A DNA stretch of 59,624 bases from Enhydrobacter aerosaccus (GTDB lineage: Bacteria; Pseudomonadota; Alphaproteobacteria; Reyranellales; Reyranellaceae): the NCBI GenBank assembly GCA_903915535.1, contig CAIWTJ010000241.1, positions 1 to 59,624 on the forward strand, written 5' to 3'. The notes under the pieces are model-generated. The model did no database searches, was not told the origin of the DNA, and saw nothing but the letters and a program-made list of their open reading frames with translations. The translations under genes and the position numbers were made by a program. Each line of letters starts with the position of its first letter. Position 1 is the first letter of the stretch. This document shows, piece by piece, positions 47,294 through 54,017 of this stretch.

Positions 47294-48349
47294 ATGCATT
47301 GGAAAGAACTCCCGCAACCGGTCCTGTCCCTCCTGCGCCACGGCACGGTGATCCCCGCGCACCCGCTGGCACTCGATGCCGAGCGCAAGTTCGACAGGGA
47401 ATCCCAGCGCGCCATCGCACGCTACTATGTCGATGCGGGCTCGGGCGGCCTCGCCGTCGGCGTGCACTCGACGCAGTTCGCGATCCGCGAGGTCGGGCTC
47501 TACACGCCCGTGCTGGAACTGGCGATCCAGACGGCCAAGGAATGGACCGATCGGCCACTGGTCATGATCGCCGGCGCAGTCGGCAAGACCGCGCAAGCAG
47601 TCGAGGAAGCGAAAACCGCGCGCTCGCTCGGCTATCACGCCGTGCTGCTGTCACTCGCGGCGCTGAAGGGTGCGAGCGAGGACGAGCTGATCGAGCACTG
47701 CACGGCCGTCGCGAAAGAAATGCCGTTGATCGGCTTTTACCTCCAGACCGCGGTGGGCGGCATCCCGCTGTCGCGCGGCTTCTGGAGCCGCTTTGCCGCG
47801 ATCGACAATGTCGTGGCGATCAAGGTGGCGCCATTCAACCGCTATCGCACGCTCGACGTCGCCTTCGGCATCGCCAACGCGCATGCCGAGGAGCGAATCA
47901 CCCTCTACACCGGCAACGACGATCACATCGTGGCCGATCTCCTGACGCCGATGGTCGTCCGTACGGGCAATCGCGAAGTGACTCTGCGCTTCCACGGCGG
48001 CCTCCTCGGTCACTGGAGCGTATGGACCCGCGGCGCGGTGAAGCTGCTGGAGAAGATCAAGCTCTCGGTGTCGGCGGGCGCCATTCCGCCAGAAACGCTG
48101 GCGCTGGACTCCTTCGTGACCGACTGCAATTCGGTGGTGTTCGACGTCGAGCACGATTTTGCCGGCTGCATCCCCGGCTGCCACGAGATCCTGCGGCGGC
48201 AGGGATTGCTGAAATCGATCGAATGTCTCGATCCGCACGAGAAGCTCAGCCCCGGACAAAGCGAGGGGATCGACCGCCTGTACGCGACCTATCCCGAGCT
48301 GCATGACGACGCCTTCGTGGCCGCGAACCTCGCGCGCTGGCGGAGCTGA
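47294..48349 (+). CDS. dihydrodipicolinate synthase (DapA) family lyase
   Basis: A 351-residue TIM-barrel aldolase-like enzyme. The Schiff-base Lys177 is in NVVAIKVAPFNRYRT and the Tyr equivalent is Tyr149 in IGFYLQTAVGG. It is about 50 residues longer than DapA. In operons with enolase-superfamily enzymes such proteins are often keto-acid aldolases or dehydratases. It begins nine bases after the GNAT stop and ends one base before the amidase start. Confidence 0.87.
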   Translation: MHWKELPQPVLSLLRHGTVIPAHPLALDAERKFDRESQRAIARYYVDAGSGGLAVGVHSTQFAIREVGLYTPVLELAIQTAKEWTDRPLVMIAGAVGKTAQAVEEAKTARSLGYHAVLLSLAALKGASEDELIEHCTAVAKEMPLIGFYLQTAVGGIPLSRGFWSRFAAIDNVVAIKVAPFNRYRTLDVAFGIANAHAEERITLYTGNDDHIVADLLTPMVVRTGNREVTLRFHGGLLGHWSVWTRGAVKLLEKIKLSVSAGAIPPETLALDSFVTDCNSVVFDVEHDFAGCIPGCHEILRRQGLLKSIECLDPHEKLSPGQSEGIDRLYATYPELHDDAFVAANLARWRS

Positions 48350-48350
48350 C

Positions 48351-49754
48351 GTGGACGATCTGTTCGCGACTCATGACGCCCTGGGCGTCGCCGAACTCGT
48401 GCGCACGCGCAAGCTCGGCGCCAAGGAACTGCTCGATGGAACGCTCTCCAACCTGCGCAAGCTCAATGGCACGCTGAACGCGATTACGGATTTCTACGAC
48501 GACGCGCCTCCGGCCGCAGTGGGGCCGTTCCAAGGCGTGCCGTATGTCATCAAGCAACTGATGGCCGATTGTGCCGGGCATCCGACCACTCTCGGCTCGA
48601 AGTTCTTTGCCAAGCAGCCCGTGGCTGCTGCCGACAGCGCCGCCGTCGCGCGCATGCGGAAGGCCGGTCTCGTGATCGTGGGCCGCACAAACACCAGCGA
48701 ATTTGGCCTCGCGCCCACGACGGAGCCGGCGTTCGTTGGCGCAACAGTCAATCCGTGGCGCAAGGATCTCTCGCCGGGCGGCTCCTCTGGCGGTTCGGCG
48801 GCGATCGTGGCTGCGCGCGGTCTGCCGATGGGCCACGCGACCGACGGGGGCGGGTCGATCCGCATCCCGGCCAGCTTGTGCGGCCTGTTCGGGCTCAAGC
48901 CGTCGCGCGGGCGGATCAGCCTTGCGCCGATCGGCGAGACGCTGGCGGGGGCGGGCGCCCAGCACTGCGTATCGATCTCGGTACGCGACTCGGCGGCGCT
49001 GCTCGACGCGACAGCCGGAGCTGAACCGGGCGATCCGTATGGCATTGCCTTACCGTCCGGCTCGTTTCTCGACGCCACGAAGCGCGCGCCGGGCAGGCTG
49101 CGCGTGGCCTTCATGCGCAAGCCGGTCGGCGGAGGAGCGCTCGATCCGGCGCTGGTGAAGGCGATCGAACGCACGGCGAAGCTGCTCGAAGAACTCGGTC
49201 ATCACGTCGAGGAGGCGGCGCCCGATTACGACGCGGCGGCGCTCAATGCCGCGTTCTGGATGGGGATGAGCGCCAATACCTACACGAACATCCAGCTGCG
49301 CTCGGCGGGCCGCACGCCGGGGCCAGGCGATCTCGAGCCGGTGACGGTCGAGACGGCGCGCCGCGGGGGACTGGTGAGCGCCAACGACTATATTCGCTGC
49401 GTGCAGACCTTCCATCGCACCGGCCGTGCTCTCGGCGCTTTCTTCGAGAAATACGACGTGCTGCTGTCGACCACCCACGCGCGGACCAGCCTGCCGCTCG
49501 GCACGGTCCGCATGGATGGCACGCTCGAACAGTTCGACGAGCAGGTCGCACCGATGACCGCGTTCACGGCGGTGTGCAACGCGACAGGCGTGCCCGCGAT
49601 GTCCGTCCCGCTGGAATGGACCGACGATGGTACGTCCAATGGGGGCCTGCCGATCGGCATGCACTTCGCGGCGAAATTGGGCGCGGAAGAAACCCTCTAC
49701 TCCCTTGCAGCTCAACTCGAGAAGGCGCGCCCCTGGCGCGATCGCCGGCCATGA
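48351..49754 (+). CDS. amidase (amidase signature family)
   Basis: A 467-residue amidase with the Ser-cisSer-Lys triad: Lys68 (YVIKQL), Ser145 (SPGGSSGGSAA) and nucleophile Ser169 (TDGGGSIRIPAS). GTG 48351 has GGAG five bases upstream and lies two bases after the previous stop. It hydrolyses an amide to acid and ammonia. It overlaps the amidohydrolase gene by four bases. Confidence 0.92.
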   Translation: MDDLFATHDALGVAELVRTRKLGAKELLDGTLSNLRKLNGTLNAITDFYDDAPPAAVGPFQGVPYVIKQLMADCAGHPTTLGSKFFAKQPVAAADSAAVARMRKAGLVIVGRTNTSEFGLAPTTEPAFVGATVNPWRKDLSPGGSSGGSAAIVAARGLPMGHATDGGGSIRIPASLCGLFGLKPSRGRISLAPIGETLAGAGAQHCVSISVRDSAALLDATAGAEPGDPYGIALPSGSFLDATKRAPGRLRVAFMRKPVGGGALDPALVKAIERTAKLLEELGHHVEEAAPDYDAAALNAAFWMGMSANTYTNIQLRSAGRTPGPGDLEPVTVETARRGGLVSANDYIRCVQTFHRTGRALGAFFEKYDVLLSTTHARTSLPLGTVRMDGTLEQFDEQVAPMTAFTAVCNATGVPAMSVPLEWTDDGTSNGGLPIGMHFAAKLGAEETLYSLAAQLEKARPWRDRRP

Positions 49755-50590
49755 TGATTTGCGACGCACAGGTTCACGTCTGGGGCGCCAACACGCCCGA
49801 ACGTCCGTGGCCCGCCGGCCGCGCCGAACCGCACCGCGAGCCGCTCGGCAAGGACGAGCTCCTTGCCGAGATGAAGAAGGCCGGCGTCGACCGGGCCATA
49901 CTCGTGCCGCCGTCGTGGGAAGGCGACCGCAACGATCTCGCCAACGACGCGGCGTCGAGCCATCCGCAGCACTTCGCCACCATGGGCCGCTTCGATCCCG
50001 ACGCGCCCAACGCCCGCGAGGTCATCAAGGACTGGAAGAAGCAGCCCGGCATGCTGGGCGTGCGCTTCACCTTCCATACGCCGTTGCTGCGCCAACCGCT
50101 GCTCGACGGGAAGTTCGACTGGGTGTGGGGCGAGATGGAGAAGGGCGGCATCCCGGCGATGGTGCTGTTCCATCACGAGTACATGCACCTCGCCGACAAG
50201 GTGGCGGAGCGCTACCCCGGCCTGAAGCTGGTGCTCGATCATCTCGGGCTGAAGAGCGGCAAGGACGTCACCGAGGCCACGAACTTCGCGACGCTCGACA
50301 ACGTGCTGGCGCTGGCCAAGCGTCCGAACGTGGCCGCCAAGGTCACGGCGATGCCGTGCTACGCCGCCGACAGGATCTATCCGTTCAAGTCCGTGCATCC
50401 GCACATCAAGCGCGTGTTCGATTCGTTCGGGCCGAAGCGGACTTTCTGGGGCACCGACTGGTCACGCCTTCCGTGCAGCTACCGCCAGGGTGTCACGATG
50501 TTCACCGAGGAAATGCCGTGGCTAAAGGGCCAGGACCTCGAATGGGTGATGGGCCGGGGCGTCTGCGAGTGGCTGGACTGGAAAGTCTGA
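49751..50590 (+). CDS. amidohydrolase family protein (ACMSD/2-pyrone-dicarboxylate lactonase type)
   Basis: A 279-residue TIM-barrel hydrolase. MICDAQVHVWG gives the first metal motif, LVLDHLGLKSG a central His/Asp, and FWGTDWSRLPCSY the last Asp, as in amidohydrolase-2 lactonases and decarboxylases. ATG 49751 overlaps the amidase stop. It is the last gene of the seven-gene operon and is convergent with the selenoprotein operon. Confidence 0.9.
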   Translation: MMICDAQVHVWGANTPERPWPAGRAEPHREPLGKDELLAEMKKAGVDRAILVPPSWEGDRNDLANDAASSHPQHFATMGRFDPDAPNAREVIKDWKKQPGMLGVRFTFHTPLLRQPLLDGKFDWVWGEMEKGGIPAMVLFHHEYMHLADKVAERYPGLKLVLDHLGLKSGKDVTEATNFATLDNVLALAKRPNVAAKVTAMPCYAADRIYPFKSVHPHIKRVFDSFGPKRTFWGTDWSRLPCSYRQGVTMFTEEMPWLKGQDLEWVMGRGVCEWLDWKV

Positions 50591-50594
50591 CGCG

Positions 50595-51566
50595 CTAGAG
50601 CTTGCGCATCACAGTCTGCGAGCCGCCGCCCCAGATCGGCAGATAAGCCATCTTGTAGCCGGCGCCGCCGGTCACGATCGGATGGATGGCGAGCGGCGAG
50701 CTGGCGATGTCCTCGCCTTTGTCGAACATATATTGTTGGACCCGCTTGAGGTCCCAAGCGTCATGCTTGGCGATTTTCTCCGCCAGCTCGAGCGGCAGCA
50801 GCAGGACCTGTTCGCCGCGCTGATTCTTGCGGCTCTGGCCGGACATGACGATCTCGGCGCGCATGGCGGCGATGACCGGATCGAGGATTGCCTCGGGCGT
50901 AGCGCCTTCACCGTCGCCGGGAAGCACTTCGGCCGTTCCCGAGATTCCCATCACCGTGATGGCGCTTGCATCCTTGCCGAGACCGAGGCGCTCGGTCAGG
51001 CCGGGGAAGGGGCCTTCATTACGCTCGGTGAAGCAGAACGTGTACTTGGCCGGCTGGCCCATGGTCGCCATGTCGCCGGTCTCCGACCGCGCGCCGCCGA
51101 TATTGCGCAGGCAAAGCTGCAGGGCGCGGCCGATGCAGGCGTTGGCGCGCGTGCCGGGCCCGATGGCATTGGTCAGCGCATTGATGCCCAGCTTGCGAGC
51201 GACCGGCCCATGGACGCAGAGCGCCACGGCGGCGCTGCCTGTTGTCGTGGCGATGCCGAGAAGATTGAAGTCGGGCTCGAGGACCGCCTGCGCGGCGGCG
51301 AGCACGACGGGCAATTCGGCGGGCACGCAGCCCGCGATCACGCATTGATAGGCGACGGCGTCCGGCGTGATCTCGCCGAACATCGGCGGCATCATGCCGA
51401 GTGAATCGGTGCAATTGGCAATGCCTGCGACCATCGCCTCGAGCCGCTTCTGCGTCGGAGGCACGAGAGGGAGGCCATCCGAGAGCTCTGCCTCCGTCAG
51501 GATCTTCTGGGCGGTCTCCCAGTCCGTCGACGGATCGACGACGGGCCAGCCGCTCCACTCGCTCAC
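50595..51566 (-). CDS. conserved protein of unknown function, paralogue B of the UGSC operon
   Basis: A 323-residue protein starting at GTG 51566 (VSEWSGWPVVDPS), with AGG eight bases upstream. It is a paralogue of the next gene: both share DGLPL/DGMPL, AGCxP, VLEPDFNL (95-102 here), a GRAxxL-like GRAL, and PAKYTFCF. Cysteines at 75, 80 and 178 are present. I do not recognise a characterised family. It ends the operon that begins with the thioredoxin-reductase-like gene, five bases from the convergent amidohydrolase stop. It lies 10 bases downstream of its paralogue. Confidence 0.8.
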   Translation of the reverse strand: MSEWSGWPVVDPSTDWETAQKILTEAELSDGLPLVPPTQKRLEAMVAGIANCTDSLGMMPPMFGEITPDAVAYQCVIAGCVPAELPVVLAAAQAVLEPDFNLLGIATTTGSAAVALCVHGPVARKLGINALTNAIGPGTRANACIGRALQLCLRNIGGARSETGDMATMGQPAKYTFCFTERNEGPFPGLTERLGLGKDASAITVMGISGTAEVLPGDGEGATPEAILDPVIAAMRAEIVMSGQSRKNQRGEQVLLLPLELAEKIAKHDAWDLKRVQQYMFDKGEDIASSPLAIHPIVTGGAGYKMAYLPIWGGGSQTVMRKL

Positions 51567-51576
51567 AATCTCGACC

Positions 51577-52614
51577 TCAGCGGGCGACGCGCGTGCAGGC
51601 GACCATGGTGCCGCCGAAGGACGGGATGAACGCCGAGTGCTTGCCCGGGCCGCCTGCCACCGTGATGTGAATGTCGTCCGGGCTGCGGCCGATGGACAGC
51701 CAGTCGCCGTCCGGCTTGTGGCCCGTGCTCTCGTAGGTCGCGAGGTTTTCCTTGGAAACGCGCGAGAGATGGATGCGCGAACGCTTCCACAGCTCCTGGC
51801 GGATGCTCTCGATGGTGAAGCCGTCGCGCTTGAGCGTCGCGGCATGCTCGGGTCCGATGATGACGAACATCGGGCCTTTGCCGTAGACCGTGTTGGCACC
51901 GGGATTGGCCATGCCGCCCGCGAACGTGGTCAGCAGGCCGTCGCCCGTGGTCGAGCCGTGGTCGTTCAGGTTATGTGGACCTTCGCCCGACATCACCGTG
52001 ACCACGCTGTCGGTCGGCGCGAAGCCGCGCTGCACGTGATAGGGCGCCCAGGGATTCTCTTCCTCGTTCTCGCCGAAGCAGAAGGTGAACTTGGCGGGGT
52101 TGCCCTGGGTCGAGCGGTCCATTTCGCCTGGCTTGGCGCCGGCCACGTTCAGCAGCATCAGGCCGAGCGCCCGGCCGATCGTGGCGTTGGCCTGGCGGCC
52201 CTGGCCGAAGCAATTGGTGCCGCAGTTGATGTTGAGCTCGTGCCGGATCGGGCCGCTCACCATCACCATCGGCGCGCAGGAATGCGTGGTGGCGAGCGTG
52301 CCGTGCAGGTTGAAGTCTGGCTCGAGAACGCTGCGCAGGGCGGCGGTCACGACCGGAAAATACTCGGGCTTGCAGCCCGCCATCACCGCGTTGGCAGCCA
52401 GCGCTTGCACGGTCGGAATGACCTGGCGCGGCGGCACGGGTGCGAAGGGGCGATTGTCGCCGCGCACCGTCTCGACGAACTTCGCCACCTTGGTTTCCGT
52501 CGGCACGAACAGCGGCATGCCGTCGCTCCAGCCTTGTTCGGTGGCGAACTCGTTGAAGGCCTCGACATCCATATCGCCGATGTCGATCACTTCCTGCTCG
52601 GCGATGTCCTTCAT
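51577..52614 (-). CDS. conserved protein of unknown function, paralogue A of the UGSC operon
   Basis: A 345-residue soluble protein, starting MKDIAEQEVIDIGDMDVEAF. ATG 52614 overlaps by four bases the TGA that ends the selenoprotein once its internal TGA is read through, which supports both calls. Shared with paralogue B are AGCKP (Cys81), VLEPDFNL (96-103), IGRALGL and GNPAKFTFCF. It has extra cysteines 113, 131 and 135 in HSCAP and NINCGTNCFG that B lacks. Cysteine-rich pattern and context suggest redox or thioester chemistry, but the family is unknown to me. Confidence 0.85.
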   Translation of the reverse strand: MKDIAEQEVIDIGDMDVEAFNEFATEQGWSDGMPLFVPTETKVAKFVETVRGDNRPFAPVPPRQVIPTVQALAANAVMAGCKPEYFPVVTAALRSVLEPDFNLHGTLATTHSCAPMVMVSGPIRHELNINCGTNCFGQGRQANATIGRALGLMLLNVAGAKPGEMDRSTQGNPAKFTFCFGENEEENPWAPYHVQRGFAPTDSVVTVMSGEGPHNLNDHGSTTGDGLLTTFAGGMANPGANTVYGKGPMFVIIGPEHAATLKRDGFTIESIRQELWKRSRIHLSRVSKENLATYESTGHKPDGDWLSIGRSPDDIHITVAGGPGKHSAFIPSFGGTMVACTRVAR

Positions 52615-53129
52615 TTGCTCGTCGCCTCGGTCAGTCCCTTTGTCGCTGCTTCGATGCGCTCCCGCAGTTCCTCGGCATTGAGGCCGCCGACGGGATGCTT
52701 AACCACGATCAACCGGGCCTCGACCTTGCGGGCTTTCGCCTGGGCCAGGACCAGCGGCTTGAATGTCTCGGTGGCGACCACGAAAGCGGTGATGCCAAGC
52801 TTTTCTAGTTCGAGGCTGTCGTGGAAACTCCACGATGAACAGCTTCCTCAATCCCCTAAGGCTAGGATGGCCGCCCTGTAGTTCTTGGCGACGTCCTGGA
52901 TAAGTTCCTTCGGTGCGGGCTGACTGGCGCTGTTCTTGGCCATGAACTTGATGTTCTCGACCTGGCGGTGCGCGCCGAGCTTCGAGCGAATGCCTTCGAG
53001 CAGCTCGCGGGCGTTCGGCTTGGAGTTCGAGATCAGGGCGATGGGGTCAGTCGCCCAGTTGACGGGCTTCAGCGTGACCTTCTCGGCCGAAGTGGCTGAA
53101 AGGCCGAAGGACGGATTGTAGATGCGCAT
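52611..53129 (-). CDS. UGSC family selenoprotein (internal TGA read as selenocysteine)
   Basis: A 172-residue protein when the TGA at 52850-52848 is decoded as selenocysteine (residue 94). Before it: MRIYNPSFGLSATSAEKVTL and NSKPNARELLEGI, ending ILALGD. After it: U-G-S-C-S-S-W-S-F-H-D-S-L-E-L-E-K, then FVVATETFKPLVLAQAKA and a stop that overlaps the next ATG by four bases. All 78 codons after the TGA are open and protein-like. TAAGGAG lies nine bases before ATG 53129. Sec94 and Cys97 form a U-x-x-C redox pair. A UGSC-containing (seleno)protein family is known from metagenomic selenoproteome work. It lies 12 bases after the flavoprotein stop. The reaction is unknown; a link to glycine-reductase-like selenoenzymes is only speculative. 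Confidence 0.88.
52812..52850 (-). promoter_or_regulatory. bacterial SECIS element (selenocysteine insertion hairpin)
   Basis: Starting at the TGA (52850-52848), the minus strand forms an upper stem TCGTGGA (52835-52829) with TCCACGA (52825-52819), perfect over 7 pairs, with loop GTT (52828-52826). Below it GCTG (52843-52840) pairs with CAGC (52818-52815) and GAG (52849-52847) with CTC (52814-52812). The apical loop starts with G, 19 bases after the UGA, as in E. coli fdhF-type elements bound by SelB. Rare codons TTA and CTA nearby fit constraint by structure. Confidence 0.85.
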
Positions 53130-53141
53130 GGAGGTTTCTCC

Positions 53142-54017
53142 TTAGTTCTTATTGAGAGCCGCGACGATGGCTTTCGCCGCCCGCTCGCCGTCGGCGACCG
53201 CCTCGTTGAGATAGGGGCGGGTTCCGGCGCGGACGTCGCCGACGGCATAGATCGTCGGCACCGAAGTGCGGCCCTCGGCATCGACAACGATATGCCCCAT
53301 AGCGTCGCGTGCAAGCGAATCCGGCAGGAATTCCGCAGCGGGAGACTGGTTGACGTAGACGAACACCGCGCTGGCCGGAATGGATTTTCGCTGGCCCCCG
53401 GCCTCGACCACGACGCTCTCGAGCCCCGCCGCTCCGCCTTCCAGTCCGACTATGCGACCGGCGATGCGGTCCACGCCTTCGGGCGTCGCGGCATTGGAAG
53501 CATCGACGACGGTGACGCCGCCCGCCACGCCTGCAAGCTCGCGCGCTTCCATGCCGGCCCAGCCGTCGGCGCCGGCCACGACGACCGGAAGGCCCGCGAA
53601 GAGGGGCCCGTCGCAGGAAGCGCAATGGGAAACGCCGCGGCCTTCGAATTCGGCTTCGTTCGGCAGGCCGAGTTTTCCCTTGTTGAGTCCGGTGGCGACG
53701 ACGAGGAGACGCGCGGTGTGGCGTTCGCCGTCCTCCGTTTCGACTGTCCACGGATCGCCGCCCGAGATTTTCTTGACGTCGCCGAAGCCCATCTCGACTC
53801 CCGCGACCGCCGCCTCGTCGGTCAGGCGCGAGGCCATGTCCGGGCCGCCCCAGGGTTCTTCGAATTCGTGCAACTCGGTAAGATTGATGAGTTGCCCGCC
53901 GGGAGCGAGCTTGTCGATGCACAGGGTCTTCAGTCCCGTGCGCGCGACTTCGGTGGCGGTGACGAGGCCTGCGGGGCCGGCGCCGATGACGATAACGTCG
54001 TAGGATGGGGTACTCAT
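53142..54017 (-). CDS. thioredoxin-reductase-like FAD-dependent oxidoreductase
   Basis: A 291-residue flavoprotein, slightly shorter than TrxR (about 315). FAD site VIGAGPAGL is at 10-18, active-site CASC at 132-135 (SHCASCDGP; usual TrxR has CATC), and IYAVGDVRAG near the end. The NADPH-binding loop is unusual: GADGWAGMEA replaces the GGGxSA pattern, and the HRRxxxR that binds NADPH phosphate is missing (VTVVDASNAATPEGV instead). It is the first gene of the selenoprotein operon and probably its electron donor. It is divergent from the PadR gene. Confidence 0.9.
   Translation of the reverse strand: MSTPSYDVIVIGAGPAGLVTATEVARTGLKTLCIDKLAPGGQLINLTELHEFEEPWGGPDMASRLTDEAAVAGVEMGFGDVKKISGGDPWTVETEDGERHTARLLVVATGLNKGKLGLPNEAEFEGRGVSHCASCDGPLFAGLPVVVAGADGWAGMEARELAGVAGGVTVVDASNAATPEGVDRIAGRIVGLEGGAAGLESVVVEAGGQRKSIPASAVFVYVNQSPAAEFLPDSLARDAMGHIVVDAEGRTSVPTIYAVGDVRAGTRPYLNEAVADGERAAKAIVAALNKN

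Follow-up and report, generated by a model that had tools for sequence, protein, structure and literature searches.

Does a TGA in the middle of an open reading frame end the gene, or does it encode selenocysteine (Sec), and what could the resulting protein do? This question is raised by positions 52611–53129, minus strand, of contig CAIWTJ010000241.1 of Enhydrobacter aerosaccus (assembly GCA_903915535.1), a stretch of 59,624 nucleotides which was analyzed as a whole and is called the window here. We find that the gene codes for a selenoprotein of the UGSC family and is an additional member of this already known, functionally uncharacterised family. What is new is its pairing with a second protein family, which we call P345.

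A selenoprotein gene cut short by standard annotation

The frame starts with the ATG at 53129, runs for 93 codons up to a TGA at 52850–52848, continues for another 78 codons and ends in a TGA stop, which shares four nucleotides with the ATG of the next gene as ATGA (52614–52611). The first-pass annotation had described this arrangement, giving no strand, and had read the internal TGA as selenocysteine of a D-U-G-S-C motif in a product of 172 residues. Our translation, ...LALGD-U-GSC... with Sec at residue 94, confirms this. It had also expected standard annotation to leave a truncated protein followed by a gap, and this is indeed so. The list of open reading frames holds a frame of 93 aa (52848–53129), a simple gene caller likewise stops at the internal TGA, and the gap extends down to 52615. 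Among the homologs a simple gene caller reduces the TGA-type genes to pieces of about 64–112 aa and reports six genes of the cysteine (Cys) type with 175–219 aa. The gene is therefore an example of how annotation loses such genes.

It could be argued that the TGA is a true stop and the gene a truncated protein or a pseudogene, as an open stretch of 78 codons is not unusual at a G+C content of 65.4% (p ~0.14). The open frame alone is thus weak evidence, and a comparison across homologs was needed. The Pfam profile PF24696 (UGSC) matches residues 5–167, across the TGA, with 128.9 bits against a gathering score of 25; it is the sole Pfam match at E ≤ 0.001, and PF07355 (GRDB) is not matched. At 118 distinct homologous sites the codon at the Sec position is TGA in 108, TGC in nine and GGC in one, and the motif reads UGSC in 97, CGSC in eight, UGGC, UGAC or UGSS in 11, and CSTC and GGNP in one each. 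On a quick tree built from few columns the Sec/Cys label changes five times, and at least three of these changes are forced by starred branches. The ratio of nonsynonymous to synonymous substitution rates (dN/dS) after the TGA, relative to four orthologs of the genus, is about 0.03, 0.14, 0.08 and 0.08; for the half before the TGA the same orthologs give about 0.03, 0.22, 0.36 and 0.28. The value after the TGA is thus lower in three orthologs and equal in the fourth, and judged from these codon comparisons the second half is under purifying selection. The genome of the window carries four UGSC genes with one TGA in each, and the family occurs in all 37 genomes of the genus and in 38 of the 61 genomes searched. 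On the codons in the Sec column and the selection after the TGA we reject the true stop, to which the exchange of TGA and TGC in one column, the three further copies in the genome, the hairpin and the Sec machinery described below are also opposed; its probability appears to us practically negligible.

The Sec machinery is complete. Genes for selA (557.9 bits) and selB (469.1 bits) lie on contig C72 of the genome, adjoining a tRNA-Sec of 71.2 bits, and selD (434.3 bits) lies on contig C199. Because the tRNA-Sec model also responds in 14 of 14 control genomes, in five of them above the cut-off, the tRNA-Sec is called from its score and its location beside selB together. The possibility of a Sec-like TGA in a genome devoid of the machinery is rejected, since all these genes are present. 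The first-pass annotation had pointed to homologs that span both halves and carry Sec or Cys at this position, to a conserved frame after the TGA and to selA, selB, selC (tRNA-Sec) and selD as evidence bearing on its selenocysteine reading; all were found, and the reading is well supported. Within the window itself a tRNA search returned none, and an Rfam scan at gathering thresholds gave no match.

Downstream of the TGA we find a hairpin resembling a bacterial selenocysteine insertion sequence (52819–52835, minus strand), which starts 15 nt after the U of the UGA and has a 7-bp stem and the loop GUU. One fixed stem, picked by eye from folds, was counted over stretches of 51 nt, comprising 99 distinct TGA and nine Cys sequences out of the 118 sites. 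The seven pairs form in 92.8% of the cells of the TGA sequences against 60.3% of those of the Cys sequences, and all seven form in 68 of the 99. One base pair is swapped between sequences: offsets 20 and 26 hold C-G in 51 of the 99 and G-C in 44. The first loop base is G in 92. As controls, re-dealt 3′ letters gave at most 84.8% and a slid stem at most 52.4% paired cells. Using synonymous-codon shuffles, the folding energy reached Z < −2 in 31 of 107 stretches after the TGA, against six of 107 upstream and five of 107 downstream; of the Cys genes two of nine did so.

Two results weigh against the assignment as a UGSC selenoprotein. In the energy test Sec and Cys genes are not distinguished (mean Z −1.15 against −0.88), so that the case for the hairpin rests on the pairing counts. 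Further, the NCBI family NF041046 gives 121.1 bits (E 3.6e-35), below its naming cut-off of 125, which is a score limit and no biological feature. With a score 4 bits under this cut-off, the window copy could escape automatic naming. We base the membership on Pfam, the motif and the tree. The window protein is like the PF24696/NF041046 family over residues 5–167, in the U-G-S-C motif and in the exchange of Sec and Cys, and shows no essential difference from it. In Geodermatophilaceae, according to the accessible part of PMC5330540, selenoproteins with the UGSC motif have Sec encoded by UAG. The remark of the first-pass annotation that the function of the family has not been described agrees with the accessible part of a 2026 review (PMC13188914).

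The partner family P345

The gene whose start overlaps the UGSC stop (51577–52614, minus strand) codes for a protein of 345 aa from an uncharacterised family, P345. It is followed by a second P345 paralog (50595–51566, minus strand; the start codon is uncertain and could lie as far as 51575), with about 32% identity over 327 residues. Neither paralog is matched by Pfam, even at E 10, or by NCBIfam at E 0.001, and the first has no match among the Protein Data Bank (PDB) sequences, by sequence or by profile.

UGSC and P345 are paired. Starting from UGSC, we took the best 30 of 140 matches, 29 of them from the genus of the window and one from another genus. All 30 loci have a P345 gene on the same strand at a distance of no more than 500 bp. 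Starting from P345, an alignment scan of named genomes gave at least 578 confirmed stretches, of which the best 80 loci were analyzed (two loci in our collection, L043 and L149, stem from a single contig). These 80 span Pseudomonadota, Acidobacteria, Mycobacterium, Chloroflexota, Methylomirabilota, Rokubacteria, Binatia, Nitrospinota, Poribacteria and others. In 61 of them the distance between P345 and UGSC is no more than 500 bp, and 67 have a UGSC gene somewhere in the locus. Of 398 genomes sampled from the phylum, five carry UGSC, including the genome of the window, and the same five carry P345, with at most five P345 candidates scored per genome. In the genome of the window the P345 matches listed fall at the same four UGSC loci.

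The two proteins also occur fused. Single UGSC–P345 proteins are encoded at five loci (L053, with Cys, and L090, L091, L101 and L108), and two further loci (L054 and L057) appear to encode fusions which are read across the TGA. A fusion of UGSC with a domain called 'Unknown_1' is mentioned in the accessible part of PMC2398784, and this domain may be P345. No conserved partner gene of UGSC is named in the accessible parts of PMC2398784, PMC13188914, PMC9312934, PMC7539508, PMC5330540 and PMC5029168, a set which leaves the subscription literature mostly uncovered.

P345 is also found on plasmids. From 24 plasmid records with P345 ten regions were opened, and UGSC is present in eight, twice with TGA (Paracoccus versutus plasmid pBEN, L179, and Acidovorax) and six times with Cys, three of the latter from haloarchaea. 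The two remaining regions are that of Vibrio europaeus, where UGSC is part of a fusion with Met in the Sec position, and that of a Haladaptatus plasmid, which has P345 and in which no UGSC was found. Vineibacter terrae (L135) is a further cultured carrier of the Sec type, and the pairs of Roseovarius sp. THAF8 and Arthrobacter sp. ERGS1:01 are of the Cys type. On two haloarchaeal plasmids (L184 and L185) the order is P345–UGSC–P345 with a UGSC of the Cys type, and genes for a CoA transferase and a TAXI-TRAP transporter lie beside.

A thioredoxin-fed two-component enzyme?

We suggest that UGSC is the redox subunit, with Sec, and P345 the second component of a two-component catabolic enzyme which is fed by thioredoxin. 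Taken as a whole this is our best explanation and we hold it to be rather probable. Sec94 and Cys97 would form a selenenylsulfide redox pair within an alpha/beta domain of the Rossmann or flavodoxin-like type. Electrons would be delivered by the thioredoxin system, in the window by a thioredoxin-reductase-like flavoprotein, elsewhere by trxB–trxA or by a thioredoxin-like domain fused to P345. The substrate would bind to P345 and is probably an organic acid or a derivative handled by the surrounding catabolic genes. The reduced selenol could then act on the substrate at the interface of UGSC and P345, and the thioredoxin system would reset the selenol. We infer complex formation, the electron route, the reductive chemistry and the substrate; the pairing and the neighbors are observed.

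The thioredoxin-type genes are found as follows. In the window the flavoprotein gene (53142–54017, minus strand, 291 aa) precedes UGSC, as it does in the orthologs, and its stop lies 12 nt before the UGSC ATG. The Arthrobacter plasmid carries trxB–trxA–P345–UGSC in one run, the Roseovarius plasmid P345–UGSC–trxB, and on the Variovorax plasmid trxB is separated from P345 by two genes. Seven P345 proteins (L045, L046, L051, L055, L128, L138 and L148) have an N-terminal domain with a C-x-T-C motif; Pfam AhpC-TSA matches it with 53.8 bits in L138 and 31.8 bits in L128, and in the other five the match is below the cut-off or absent.

The run on the plasmid of Arthrobacter sp. ERGS1:01 (L178) comprises, on one strand, genes for an ABC transporter, a CocE hydrolase and a phosphosulfolactate synthase, followed by trxB, trxA, P345 and UGSC. 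As a candidate operon it is well suited to a search for the substrate.

The trx genes near P345 in Roseovarius, Arthrobacter and Variovorax would equally suit a UGSC protein serving in antioxidant defense or repair, as a peroxidase or a disulfide reductase with a thioredoxin-like fold and with P345 as its client. A thioredoxin-like fold for UGSC was suggested in the 2008 survey, as far as its accessible part goes (PMC2398784). The predicted structure is unlike thioredoxin. AlphaFold2, using an alignment of 67 sequences (the window protein and 66 of 67 locus rows, L153:11333-11746 being omitted), gave a model with a mean predicted local distance difference test score (pLDDT) of 93.6, in which five strands alternate with five helices in the order E-H-E-H-E-H-E-H-E-H and Sec94 follows strand 3; residue 173 of this model is an artefact, as the final stop TGA was read as a residue. 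The thioredoxin fold has the core beta-alpha-beta-alpha-beta-beta-alpha with UxxC after its first strand. The varied catabolic and transport genes around UGSC–P345, and the several UGSC–P345 copies per genome in different settings, also argue against an antioxidant role, which we consider highly doubtful.

Several features of the models are consistent with the proposed two-component enzyme. The conserved residues N35/K37, K65, U94/C97, F123 and H145 each lie just past the predicted end of a strand, a placement which in the model resembles the active sites of Rossmann-like enzymes. C97 is retained in 64 of the 67 sequences. Of 1000 chains in a fold search with the UGSC model, 883 reached Z ≥ 5, the best being a designed protein (Z 11.1) and 8s7v_H (Z 10.9); these matches reflect a common alpha/beta arrangement and not function. 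P345, modeled from 93 sequences (91 of 93 locus rows and the two window proteins; L082 and L090:379-1605 were omitted), reached a mean pLDDT of 93.3 and has one near-invariant cysteine, C81 (92 of 93). Both sets of locus rows come from the 160 of 167 domain matches in the 80 loci that were kept, those with a low score, with N or with more than one TGA having been dropped. A Foldseek search with P345 gave class I fumarases as best match (E 2e-3, TM ≤ 0.27) and the best VIA score was Z 5.0; these were not used. Profile searches of the PDB sequences with the UGSC and P345 alignments gave nothing below E 0.19. The searches thus gave no good match of the predicted P345 fold to a solved structure, and a new fold is not thereby proven. 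A fold prediction for a fused UGSC–P345 protein from a mixed alignment was dropped, as MAFFT placed the single UGSC proteins on the P345 part.

The other neighbors point mostly to the catabolism of organic acids and amides, with companions which differ between the copies. Over 101 loci, in which the neighbor clusters were named by reading sequences and not by family search, we count ABC ATP-binding proteins (21), tripartite tricarboxylate transporter binding proteins (20), crotonases (17), thioredoxin-reductase-like proteins (13), short-chain dehydrogenases (11), CaiB-type CoA transferases, LivH-type permeases, AMP ligases and luciferase-like monooxygenases (10 each) and acyl-CoA dehydrogenases (9). 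In the window, genes for a DHDPS-family protein, an amidase and an amidohydrolase-2 protein (47294–50590, plus strand) converge on the UGSC and P345 genes. The trio also adjoins UGSC of this type elsewhere, in five loci (L042, L048, L052, L058 and L140); it is not beside UGSC in L043/L149, L142, L135 and L124, which have related operons. Of two more window proteins compared with NCBIfam, a single one had matches, all of the LivH type.

A number of observations do not sit well with the proposed enzyme. A thioredoxin-reductase-like gene is found in only four of the 80 named loci, in one of them (L095) about 5 kb away, and trx genes occur in three of the ten plasmid regions, with none in the gene tables of the other seven. 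The window flavoprotein has the CASCD motif and lacks GGGxxA and HRR, the NADPH motifs of thioredoxin reductases. Thirteen P345 loci of the 80 have no UGSC in the available DNA: six from Poribacteria, two at contig ends and five unexplained. One UGSC–P345 fusion has Gly in place of Sec or Cys (L101:3987-5726), and in another, from Vibrio europaeus (L182:6374-8059), which scores weakly, at 14 bits, against UGSC, Met replaces Sec. In some proteins the UGSC domain may thus play a non-redox role. The six Poribacteria proteins (L106, L121, L123, L130, L144 and L147) are P345 of 314–317 aa and speak against a purely redox role; several of them adjoin genes read as CBS-domain and dehydratase-like.

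Such redox-dead domains, together with genes for CoA transferases, crotonases, CoA-ester lyases, amidases and hydrolases nearby and the weak likeness of P345 to class I fumarases, would suit an enzyme in which Sec is the nucleophile of a non-reductive reaction of UGSC–P345, by a lyase, isomerase or hydrolase, and thioredoxin merely keeps the selenol reduced. The near-constant C97, as in a redox UxxC pair, and the thioredoxin-like domains fused to P345 argue against this, and we regard it as unlikely.

If the two-component redox enzyme is correct, UGSC and P345 would constitute an undescribed class of thioredoxin-fed two-component (seleno)enzymes, present in proteobacteria, Chloroflexota, Rokubacteria, Actinomycetes, haloarchaea and other groups and catalyzing a reductive step when varied organic acids are broken down. 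P345 would then be a new family of enzymes, with a predicted fold for which our searches gave no convincing match to a solved structure. For this wider claim we see the balance as about even. The P345 partner, the thioredoxin link and the three further UGSC genes, all missed by the first-pass annotation, are the most informative points. With a partner gene, thioredoxin genes, natural fusions and Cys forms from cultured hosts to work with, the function of UGSC becomes accessible to ordinary biochemical tests.

Comparison with known thioredoxin-linked systems

The window flavoprotein is like thioredoxin reductases in belonging to the FAD-dependent family and in its CxxC motif, and its relatives in the PDB include 5mh4 and 6gna, the latter presumably of the ferredoxin-dependent type. 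It differs from them in the missing GGGxxA and HRR. Because these motifs are absent, the flavoprotein may, as far as its sequence suggests, draw electrons from a donor other than NADPH. In the cluster of 13 such proteins GGGxxA is absent in nine (two of the nine being one contig) and kept in four; all three plasmid trxB products have it. UGSC and the thioredoxin-like selenoproteins have the UxxC redox motif in common, and UGSC differs from them in its predicted Rossmann or flavodoxin-like fold, where Sec follows the third strand.

A second hidden selenoprotein family is present in the genome of the window, a GRDB/PrdB-like protein of about 393 aa on contig C64 (L174:784-1962, minus strand). 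Its open reading frame stops at a TGA within the motif LLVPV-U-PAC, and the TGA ends the frame there in all 12 loci of this family (L164–L175). The matches to PF07355 (GRDB) end at model position 345–346 of 347, at the Sec residue. This Pfam model may therefore derive from proteins truncated at the TGA.

Glycine and proline reductases consist of several components and use thioredoxin as electron donor. By analogy, the proposed two-component enzyme would work like them. It is possible that the likeness goes further and that UGSC is a remote homolog of the Sec domain of GrdB/PrdB, the pair being a reductase for the cleavage of a C-N or similar bond, a reading which partly coincides with our best explanation. 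An hhalign comparison of UGSC with the GRDB-like proteins of the same genus gave E 9.4e-5 and a probability of 59% with the Sec columns in register, the best of 53 profiles tried. However, the profile of an unrelated amidohydrolase-2 cluster, used as a control, reached E 2.4e-4, P345 has no similarity to GRDB by profile (E 0.33), and no GRDB relative was found in the PDB by sequence for a fold comparison. The homology of UGSC and GRDB is thus suggestive only, and we place such a C-N-cleaving reductase on the doubtful side. UGSC stands apart from the GRDB/PrdB selenoproteins in the missing Pfam GRDB match and in its unrelated partner P345, and resembles them in having a UxxC motif with Sec at the end of a strand.
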